This document shows, in pieces, positions 19,358 through 64,000 of a stretch of DNA of 64,000 bases (position 1 is its first letter; each line of letters begins with the position of its first letter). The position numbers were made by a program, and so were the translations under genes. Origin of the DNA: Halichondria panicea (lineage: Eukaryota; Porifera; Demospongiae; Suberitida; Halichondriidae); NCBI RefSeq assembly GCF_963675165.1, contig NC_087390.1, positions 5,742,250-5,806,249 on the forward strand. Reading direction: 5' to 3'. The notes under the pieces were generated by a model that saw nothing but the letters and a program-made list of their open reading frames with translations, had not been told where the DNA came from and ran no database searches.

Positions 19358-22300
19358 ATGAAGTGTGGTGTATTCTTGCTATTGATCGCTCTAAGTTTTA
19401 ATGGAGGTCAATGCTGGGACCAGGAGGAGCTGGATGTGTTCGATCTAGTGGAGGAAATCGGACTAGAAGATAATTTCTATGAGATAATGGGAGTGGATCA
19501 GGTAAAATTGTTCAATCTGCATAAATAAAAGCTATATATATGATGTATGATTTAGTAGGTACTACTGTAGCTGTGTATATAGTCATGACTAGTGTAAAGA
19601 CATCTCCCTTATAATTATTTTTAAACAATGGACATACGTACGTGTGTGCAGATACTGCAACCAACTGTTGGCAATGTGTATTTTGACTTCCTCAGTAGAC
19701 AATACGATCAAAACACTCATCATACTATTAGTATAGGAACTGTATAGAACACTTCCTGTACAGTTACTGCTAGTGGTTTCAGTGGGTATATTGTTAAGCT
19801 CAGCTGACACTAAGTTATAAAAATGTATCCAGAACATTTTTGAGAGTAGTTTTTGAGAGTATAAAAATGTTTCAGTGAGCTATATGGTTATGAGTGCACT
19901 GGAGTACACCCACTCACACACCGCACACACACCCACTCACACACACACACATACACCACACACAGTCTGCTACAGCTGGCGAGATAAAGAGGGCGTATCG
20001 ACAACTCTCTCTCAAACTCCACCCAGACAAATCAGACGATCCGGACGCTGCAGCCAAATTCAGAAAAGTGAGAATATAACTTTATATATATCCCATTGTG
20101 CTTATAGCCAGACATCTCACTGCCAAAAATGTCCCATTAAGTTGCCAGTGGAATCCTTTATGAAATTGATACCTAATGGAAGCAAAGGTGACCTTTTATT
20201 GAGTTAATTTGGGACCAAGCTTCCTGGCCTTTATATTGCAGTTGACTTTTCTTTAGGGCTGGCTGTTTGCAAGAGAGGTTCCCTGTTAGTATGTATGCGT
20301 ATGGTACTAATGGCTAGTACCAGGAGTTCATACATTGTAGTATTATATCGATAGCCATTTCCTCATGCTGTGTATACTGGATTTCAGATGGTGAAAGTGC
20401 TTACGGTTGTTTTCTAACAGATGTGTTAGTTGTTGAAACTGTGTTTTTCGTTCATATCCAGTTGGTGGCAGTGGCGGAGGTACTAAAGGACGAGCAAAAG
20501 AGAGAATGGTGGGTACAATATTAGCTCACACAAAATCCAACTCATGCAATTACAAATTTTTCCTTAAAATCGTTACTTGCTTAGGTAGCTTGTATTTCCA
20601 AATTGCATCAATTCTATATTGAACTCTACCCATGCACCCACCCACACAAAACCATACACACACACACCACCCACCTACACATACACACACACGCCCATAC
20701 CACCCACCTACACATACACACAGGTACGACCGTGTTCTGGTAGAGGGTCTTCCCGATTGGAAACAACCTCTCTTCTACTATCGACGAGTGCGCAAAATGG
20801 GACTATTGGAAATGAGTGCACTTGTTCTGCTCTTTGCCACTGTCGGCCATTACGTGTGGGGGTGGGCTGTCTACGTGGAGAAGCAGCTCGTGCTGGTGAG
20901 TGGGTGGGTGTGTGTGGGGGTGGGCTGTCTACGTGGAGAAGCAGCTCGTGCTGGTGAGTGGGTGGGTGTGTGTGGGGGTGGGCTGTCTACGTGGAGAAGC
21001 AGCTCGTGCTGGTGAGTGGGTGGGTATGTGTGGGGGTGGGCTGTCTATTGAGTGGGTGGCTAGCTGTGATTGCGTAGGATGGGGTACAACAGTGGATCAT
21101 TTTCAAGTACGTACAGTGTATAGTAATAATTCTTGTTCACTGTCTTCTTCATAATTATACAGGTCAATCCAGAGATTTCTATCAATTCCGTATTGTATCT
21201 CTTAATACTTAAACTTGAACTTAGCTCATCAACTAAATGCATTGTTCAGCATTGAATTGTCCCATCCCGTACAGCAAGAGTTGCTGACTCGAAAGGAAAA
21301 GAAGATCAAGAAATTGAAGAAGTCTCCCCGGAGTGTCCCCACACAACTGGAGGCAGAGCTGGAGTACCACACCGCCCAGGCCAATGGTGTGTACTGGTCG
21401 TTCATTGTACGTGTATATGTAGTCAAGAGCCCATAATCATTATAATATCTGAACATAGCATGCATAGCGTTGAATCAGATCTGATGTATTCGGAAAGTAA
21501 ACGTGATTTCCTGTCGTGATTATTAATGATAATTTGACAATGATGCTGCCTCGAGGCAAGTGGCAGCTCCAAGTGCTCTGATTGGTCAGTTATCAAGCAG
21601 GAAATCACGTTACTTTCCGAATACATCTGATGCAAGCTAGGCCAGAGGAGGTACGACAGCCGTGACTCAGCTCTAGCAATTAGCCTCTGATTGAACACCA
21701 ATTATCCGCCCACGTACAATATTATTACTGCATTCAATCAAAGGACGTTTTTTCAATTGAATGACACCAGTAATAATGTTGTATGTGGGCAGATAATTGG
21801 TGTTCAATCAGAGGCTAATTGCTGGAGCTGAGTCACGGCTGTCGTACCTCCTCTGAAGCTTGGCTGTGCTACGTACGCGATACTCTCTCTCTCTTTTATT
21901 ATGGACTCCAGAGTGTAGTTAAGTGGTGCTTTGTTTGAAACTGGTGCCTAGCCTCTGTATCGCAGTTAACCTTCCTCAGTGGTGTCCCGTTAATTAAGAG
22001 AGCAAGATAGCTGTCTGAGTTGACTGTATGTATCCAAATTAAAATGTTGTCTTGGGTTTTGATCCTAGCTAGATGAACTGTTTTGTTTGCTAACTTTTGA
22101 GTGGGCCATAAAACAAATTTATGGATTGTCCACTTTTGTACACACACACACACACACACCCCACACACACCACACACACACACACACACACACACACACA
22201 CACACACCCCACACACACCCCACACACCCTCACACACACCCCACACACACACACACCCCACACACACACACACACACACACACACACACACACACACACA

Positions 22301-63100: not shown

Positions 63101-64000
63101 AGGATGTGAAGGTACGTATACTTTCGTAATTGTCTACTTATATATAGCGGGTAAATTTGGCGATTTGGTGAACAAGCTTAAGGTGAGGGTCACCAATGTT
63201 TCAGTTTGATACTTAGTCCCATGCAGAAGGTCATGGCAATCATGCTGCATGCATCGTCAAACCAACTACCTCATTCACTAAAATTAGTATTAGGCTCACA
63301 AATGTACCCGCTATATGTTATCTGGGAATTTCCTATAGCTTGCAATTGTCTCCGACGATTTCCTCAAAAGCCATTCTTTTGAAAATTTTCCTGAAATCTG
63401 AAGAAGCGAACTTATAAGGATATATAGGGTTCGATCCTTATAAAGTTCGTTTCTTCAAATGTTATTACCTGAAGTGCCGCTAAGACTCATACCACTAATA
63501 AACCACGATTCAGGAACCAATGACAGCCGGTACACCCATGTATGCCGCACCAGAGCTGATGAAAGTCAGGGTGAATAGTAGGACTGATGCTAAAGCTACT
63601 GATTCTTATTCCCTTGGTGTGGTTATATACGAGCTGTTAACCAGAACTCAACGAGATCAAGGTATGAATAAGTGTAATTTATGCGTTTAAGCAAGGAAAT
63701 AAGTTTATCGCATAAATAATAATTATAGCATTCTGCTTTCCGAGCCGCCACAACTTTTATGCTCACATATATTCTAGCACTATATACAAATATTATAGCT
63801 AGGCCCTAGTTTTGGCAGAAACACATCAAGTATAATTATATACATGCAATAATTATAGAGGTTATAGTACAACTTGATAGGTCGTTTATATTAGTGCAGC
63901 AACTTTGATGATGAATTGTACCCTCACCACTCACACACACACAGAGGAAGTGGAAGCGTACCGGCAACCGATGAGTGAGAAATTAGCTGGAATTCAACAG
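60170..64000 (+). pseudogene. TGF-beta/activin type II-like receptor, copy E, catalytic exon deleted
   Basis: Exons 60170-60192, 60856-60920, 61402-61529, 61633-62142, 62507-62726, then 63514-63661 and 63945 to the window end. Exon 6 is missing except its last ~15 bases. At 63094/63095 the intron sequence CATGCA joins TTACTGAGG, a 127-bp deletion relative to copy A (27147-27273). It removes the acceptor, the HGD catalytic loop and DFG. Joining exon 5 to exon 7 shifts the frame, with a stop about 20 codons later (~336 residues). Retaining intron 5 also stops early. The predicted product keeps signal peptide, ten-Cys ectodomain (GITLIPS variant), membrane helix (VICCCWKRC) and kinase N-lobe only. 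It is either a pseudogene or a kinase-less decoy. Confidence 0.83.

Follow-up and report, generated by a model that had tools for sequence, protein, structure and literature searches.

The locus described here raises the question of whether a type II receptor of the TGF-beta family, of which the published counts cited here, as excerpted, give one to three in invertebrates, can undergo local amplification in a sponge and what the resulting copies might do. According to excerpts of the papers concerned, Amphimedon has three type I and two type II receptors and Mnemiopsis has three and one (PMC3169577), Halisarca has four type I and two type II receptors (PMC8235796), and a survey of 24 species gave one type II gene in the sponge and in Trichoplax and five in mammals (PMC5979292). 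Three type II receptors are given for the urochordate level (PMC2657120), and three copies of the type II receptor daf-4 for Pristionchus pacificus (PMC9733428), again from excerpts. The window, which is the whole stretch of 64,000 nucleotides that was analysed (contig C14 of the breadcrumb sponge Halichondria panicea, positions 5742250-5806249), holds a head-to-tail array of receptor kinase genes.

A genome-wide search, together with the downstream sequence, gave seven array units in total; the window contains five, the fifth truncated by the window end. The tandem array of at least five receptor kinase genes proposed in a preliminary description of this DNA is real, therefore, and larger than was proposed, extending beyond the window. 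Exon 4 matches in this search start at C14 5767934, 5778246, 5786799, 5795289, 5803870, 5812255 and 5821840 for copies 1 to 7, and no eighth copy was present among the best candidates scored. Comparison of the window with itself listed 16 five-copy families of 300-nt direct repeats (D5-D20) that recur across the units with start spacings of approximately 10.3, 8.6, 8.5 and 8.6 kb; most repeats are 96-100% identical to the reference copy, the lowest value being 87%. The unit length of approximately 8.5 kb previously put forward fits the spacings of units 2-4 but not unit 1, which reaches 10.3 kb because of two private inserts. We have labelled the longer insert DNA-transposon-like, a label that refers to its matching inverted ends. 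Unit starts adjoin (CA)n tracts, with tracts similar to that of unit 1 near 32.6k, 41.1k, 49.7k and 58.2k, and these may help unequal exchange. Unit 7 has other DNA immediately upstream of the receptor gene, and its downstream DNA is mostly different too. The features peculiar to unit 1 are as follows.

22152..22330, no strand assigned: (CA)n tract close to the 5' edge of unit 1, from the self-comparison
28036..28784, no strand assigned: insert of 749 bp in intron 7 of unit 1, absent in the other six units
29393..30451, no strand assigned: insert of 1059 bp in intron 9 of unit 1, with matching inverted ends

Each array unit consists of a receptor gene and the 3' exons of a J-domain gene which we take to be DNAJC1-like and whose last three exons fall within unit 1. 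The J domain of this gene matches PF00226 at 2.9e-23 in a hand-joined piece, while the Myb match of its C-terminus, at 0.011, is below the profile's cut-off.

19358..23938, plus strand: DNAJC1-like gene with a signal-peptide-like start, J domain and Myb/SANT-like C-terminus
32748..34264, plus strand: DNAJC1-like 3' fragment of unit 2, frame open
41306..42834, plus strand: DNAJC1-like 3' fragment of unit 3, frame open
49786..51305, plus strand: DNAJC1-like 3' fragment of unit 4, frameshifted
58369..59878, plus strand: DNAJC1-like 3' fragment of unit 5, frame open

The frame is also open in the fragment of unit 6, and for unit 7 no position could be assigned to the first exon of the three. As the three-exon piece recurs in the later units with no evident 5' part, the ancestral unit was probably the 3' end of the DNAJC1-like gene plus the receptor. 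A self-inverse repeat (window 21643-21855), with 89% identity to its own reverse complement, lies in a DNAJC1-like intron immediately upstream of the array. Elsewhere in the window are two adjoining open frames with a BTB domain on the minus strand (8215-10748; approximately 90-94% DNA identity), whose resemblance to SPOP is our label and goes with a weak BACK match only, and a minisatellite of 68 bp in approximately 20 copies at approximately 99% identity (13162-14563).

Copies 1-4 all accommodate a ten-exon receptor model whose introns are GT/AG and whose exon lengths do not differ between these copies, in agreement with the ten-exon gene of approximately 520 residues described previously. 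The coding length is 1563 nt (1575 nt in copies 6 and 7), and the product, of approximately 520 aa, runs from a signal-peptide-like start through a ten-Cys ectodomain, a Thr-rich stalk, one transmembrane stretch and a juxtamembrane region to the kinase. Exons 1 and 2 are a prediction of this analysis; P0001, the model from NCBI, is named 'activin receptor type-1B-like' [Halichondria panicea]; it starts later, without the ectodomain, and agrees exactly with the C-terminal 373 residues of copy 2.

24231..30585, plus strand: receptor copy 1, ten exons, of which exon 8 is interrupted by an in-frame TAG (codon 418 of 520)
24231-24253, 24917-24981, 25466-25593, 25697-26206, 26568-26787, plus strand: exons 1-5 of copy 1
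27148-27290, 27694-27841, 28880-29007, 29152-29262, 30499-30585, plus strand: exons 6-10 of copy 1
34557..39127, plus strand: receptor copy 2, intact, 520 aa
36045..36554, plus strand: exon 4 of copy 2, with ectodomain Cys 4-10 including CCC-NATL-CN, stalk, transmembrane stretch, juxtamembrane region without a GS box, and kinase start to VAVK
37494..37636, plus strand: exon 6 of copy 2, with the catalytic loop HGDLKTGN (Gly for the Arg of HRD) and DFG
43124..47707, plus strand: receptor copy 3, intact
51603..56158, plus strand: receptor copy 4, intact
60170..64000, plus strand: receptor copy 5, truncated at the window boundary (running to the window equivalent of 64589), with a deletion of most of exon 6

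The deletion in copy 5 removes most of exon 6, with the catalytic loop and DFG, plus its acceptor, and when exon 5 is joined straight to exon 7 the frame shifts and a stop is reached at codon 337. Reading frames are open throughout in copies 2, 3, 4, 6 and 7. Five of the seven copies are intact, therefore, owing to the TAG in the kinase of copy 1 and the exon 6 loss in copy 5. Hence the earlier view of five like receptor genes holds for the shared ten-exon model, but two of those five are broken.

Comparison of sequences indicates that the kinase is a member of the TGF-beta receptor family and most likely belongs on its type II side, which the trees favour while AU tests leave alternatives. 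The best 34 of 60 listed matches to solved structures (1921 matched) are TGF-beta receptors, with an E value of 1.4e-30 for the best of these versus 7.7e-19 for the best other kinase. All ten ectodomain cysteines predicted by the preliminary description are kept in 7/7 copies, with a C-terminal CCC-x4-CN; a CCC end to the ectodomain is a mark of the ActRII/BMPR2 class. The cysteine spacing is 10,9,17,5,6,18,0,0,4 in the array and 19,9,17,6,5,11,0,0,4 in ACVR2A, for which the letters were checked. Six array introns lie at equivalent places and in the same phase as those of the ActRII-like P0121, although within a gapped loop one of the six is displaced by 4 residues; a seventh intron, close to the C-terminus, agrees in phase but is displaced by about a dozen residues. 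This comparison is our own reading of the alignment. The juxtamembrane region has no GS box detectable by the Pfam profile, as had been supposed, and across the genome the GS profile matched two C6 loci only. Against this assignment, PF01064 did not match the array ectodomain at E values up to 5, although it equally missed the ordinary sponge receptor P0121; it also matched nowhere in the whole genome, controls included, so that the genome-wide scan carries no information. On the negative side, too, a search of the PDB with the array ectodomain alone found no receptor and two chance matches only. NCBIfam profiles gave only weak bacterial-kinase matches to the array protein, all far below cut-off.

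Three trees bear on the placement of the kinase. One had 22 rows with three outgroups and six of the seven array copies (copy 5 excluded), a second had 19 rows and no outgroup, and a third had 31 rows, with array copies 2, 4 and 7 plus 15 further proteins found by search; the first two included one of three copies from a C11 cluster and the C4 and C5 loci described below, and excluded a C14 pair. The array formed a clade with HpC1 and HpC11b in every tree (99/99 with 22 rows, 99/97 with 19 and 100/100 with 31), and the closest relatives of the array thus appear to be the ActRII-like genes for type II receptors in the same sponge. Type I and type II receptors separated, the array falling with type II, at 99/99 (19 rows, no outgroup) and 100/100 (31 rows), and in the tree with an outgroup a type I clade excluding the array had support of 97/96. 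Trees, introns and cysteine spacing agree with the type II-like receptor that had been proposed.

The array nevertheless differs from known members of this class. It resembles ActRII/ACVR2 (human ACVR2A/2B and P0121 of H. panicea) in its ten-Cys ectodomain with CCC-x4-CN, single transmembrane stretch and absence of a GS box, and P0121 additionally in kinase clade and matching introns; it differs in two substitutions of Arg within the kinase, in shorter alignment loops, in its long branch and in its seven tandem copies. In an alignment with 28 further TGF-beta receptors, type I and type II, the array departs from the family at 16 kinase columns that are at least 90% conserved. The Arg of HRD is replaced by Gly ('non-RD') and that of GTxRY by Met, each being Arg in 28/28 other aligned rows; HGD is present in all six copies possessing exon 6, while the array retains the VAVK Lys, DFG and the two catalytic residues Asp and Asn. 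As the HRD motif is absent, we regard the array as a divergent variant and not as a standard type II receptor, and the HGD loop suggests a mode of activation or a partner differing from those of standard type II receptors. An excerpted source links non-RD kinases with roles in innate immunity, both in plants and in animals, and with low in vitro activity (PMC8463890); for the array this connection is an association only. The array stem measures 1.69, 1.9 and 2.68 changes per site in the 22-, 19- and 31-row trees, versus 0.39 (22 rows) and 0.44 (19 rows) for the stem of the C1/C11b sister pair; in the 31-row tree the array stands beside C11b (81/68), whose own branch is near zero. A branch of 1.7-2.7 changes per site makes long-branch effects possible. 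In a set of 5.8 billion proteins, a full-length query found P0001, from the same genome, as the sole close relative among the 8000 best word-sharing candidates scored; 160 proteins were listed, and the next best after P0001, at 1e-12, was of a generic kinase type. With residues 30-215 as query, P0001 alone was found among 640 candidates. Both searches depend on exact words in common and cannot prove absence in other sponges.

The genome contains other parts of a TGF-beta pathway. Type I receptors with a GS box are encoded by two genes on C6, and ordinary type II receptors by one gene on C1 (C1:4110k) and one on C11 (C11:490k); ligands and Smads are represented by 13 TGF_beta and 7 MH2 matches, some of these matches being exons of one gene. 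The NCBI model at C11:490k (L062; P0121, 'activin receptor type-2B-like') is of 838 aa and has one kinase, EGF-like domains and three CCC-x4-CN motifs, apparently, therefore, three ligand-binding domains; for receptors of sponge and oyster, an excerpt of an earlier paper mentions duplicated ectodomains (PMC13187141). The gene at C1:4110k (L061), a type II receptor close in sequence to C11b, has DFD in place of DFG, and its kinase may therefore be impaired. A second cluster on C11 (1612752, 1654438 and 1684288; L057-L059) comprises three copies of a type II-like receptor kinase without a GS box, spaced by approximately 42 and 30 kb. Four loci, at C14:5117439, C14:5155240, C5:3598865 and C4:4215319 (L053-L056), encode divergent receptor kinases that are type I-like but went unreported by the GS profile, those on C14 being 38 kb apart; the C4 and C5 loci group with type I in the 22-row tree. 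Dozens of kinase-domain matches, mostly in long open frames, form dense clusters at C3:0.87-1.71 Mb, and such clusters elsewhere in the genome make tandemness itself less surprising.

The copies themselves are young and have exchanged sequence. Copies 1-6 diverge by 0.86-1.95% in non-coding DNA, which bears out the recent local expansion envisaged previously; the 21-25% obtained for copy 7 is inflated by its unrelated flanks. All four gametes occur at 353 of 595 pairs of informative sites, which is incompatible with a single tree, and the nearest-partner copy changes along the unit. These patterns point to gene conversion or unequal exchange, with copies that are mosaic.

Low divergence of this kind could, for a sponge, fall within the allelic range, and it is conceivable that alleles or misjoined reads were placed in tandem and that the true copy number is lower. 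We consider such an assembly artefact distinctly unlikely, as individual units carry their own marks (the inserts of unit 1, the exon 6 deletion of unit 5, the DNAJC1-like frameshift of unit 4 and the upstream DNA of unit 7), copies 6 and 7 have in common a last exon that is 12 nt longer, the 131 Mb assembly, with 39 contigs, is a long-range one, and seven units are not obtainable from two alleles alone. The array is real, as far as the assembly goes. A different doubt concerns the identity of the kinase, which might be derived from type I, or be another TKL kinase, have no GS box and merely resemble type II receptors. Type I receptors score slightly above type II among the 60 listed solved-structure matches, NCBI gives P0001 a type I name, and the AU tests are indecisive: the 22-row data rejected a grouping of the array with type I (p 0.034), the 31-row data did not (p 0.115), and neither array + C1 + C11b + type I (p 0.379) nor array + outgroup (p 0.114) was rejected. 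The phylogeny thus did not place the kinase outside the family, while leaving the outgroup position unrejected, and a clade of all type II rows, unresolved in the outgroup tree, was not rejected either (p 0.427). The introns and clade shared with an ActRII-like gene, the CCC-x4-CN end of the ectodomain and the absence of both a GS match and, in the trees, a placement among type I kinases argue against a type I or other TKL origin, which we regard as highly improbable.

It is also possible that the array is passive, with one functional gene amplified and the remaining copies decaying. Two of the seven copies are broken, and the DNAJC1-like fragments lacking a 5' part are what by-products would look like. 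Five copies are intact, however, across 1563-1575 nt, and the kinase carries 14 nonsynonymous and 22 synonymous changes among seven copies, nonsynonymous changes being below neutral at every kappa used (p 7e-7 at kappa 1, 7.5e-5 at kappa 5). With the intact copies 2, 3, 4, 6 and 7 alone the figures are 13 and 22 (p 3.5e-7 at kappa 1). This shows purifying selection on the array kinase, although the p values are approximate because changes in related copies are not independent, and conversion from one functional copy or selection before duplication could mimic constraint in the intact copies. A passive array is, on balance, unlikely. The preliminary description had also suggested self/non-self signalling, and a recognition array, whether self/non-self or immune, under diversifying selection would accord with tandem copies that exchange sequence and with an ectodomain pN/pS of 0.39, which exceeds the 0.16 of the kinase (0.54 in the stalk, transmembrane and juxtamembrane regions). 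Moreover, in a nematode with duplicated TGF-beta components, mutants alter a kin-recognition signal, according to an excerpt (PMC9733428). However, ectodomain pN/pS is below 1, within the first 132 codons the amino acid varies at 17, all seven copies have the ten cysteines in place, and the 19 nonsynonymous and 11 synonymous changes in these codons among seven copies are not above neutral (p 0.057 to 0.23), so that no diversifying selection on the ectodomain was detected. The contrast between ectodomain and kinase is also non-significant (Fisher p 0.083 for seven copies, 0.136 for copies 1-6). Self/non-self signalling is therefore unsupported, and we view a variable-recognition array as very improbable.

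Recent tandem amplification of one highly diverged type II-like TGF-beta receptor gene, acting mainly on dosage and with possible decoys, is the explanation that we consider probable. Its sequence-based part is established, namely seven copies, five of them intact, mosaic by exchange and with a kinase under purifying selection. Unequal crossing-over would have generated the copies. The protein would sit in the membrane, where its putative three-finger ectodomain may bind a ligand of the TGF-beta family and the receptor may partner with those type I receptors of the genome that have a GS box. Additional copies would chiefly increase dosage, while the kinase-broken copies 1 and 5, if expressed, could act as decoys. 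These two would keep an ectodomain and membrane anchor with no complete kinase, as in the BAMBI pseudoreceptor (PMC3169577, excerpt); unlike BAMBI, they arise from damage within the array and are known here from sequence. A more speculative idea, and in our judgement a very unlikely one, is that a copy of an ActRII gene became a non-RD kinase leaving standard Smad signalling for sensing of microbes or neighbours, tuned by tandem copies and kinase-broken decoys; if true, this would be a TGF-beta-type counterpart of non-RD immune receptor kinases.

The receptor kind itself is familiar; the surprise is that this tier has been amplified and that its kinase is non-RD. Amphimedon and Halisarca likewise have receptors of both types with divergent sequences, but the excerpted accounts describe no tandem type II array (PMC3169577, PMC8235796), and, among the open-licence papers that literature searches listed, no title or opening of an abstract reports one in a sponge. 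The daf-4 genes of P. pacificus likewise show an invertebrate type II receptor duplicated within one lineage, but with three copies as opposed to seven and, in the excerpt, not described as a tandem array (PMC9733428). In the amplification favoured here, seven tandem copies and five further type II-like loci suggest that in a sponge a supposedly static tier is capable of very fast expansion and evolution, and the intact, non-RD and kinase-broken receptors form a natural set for testing what type II signalling requires of its kinase.
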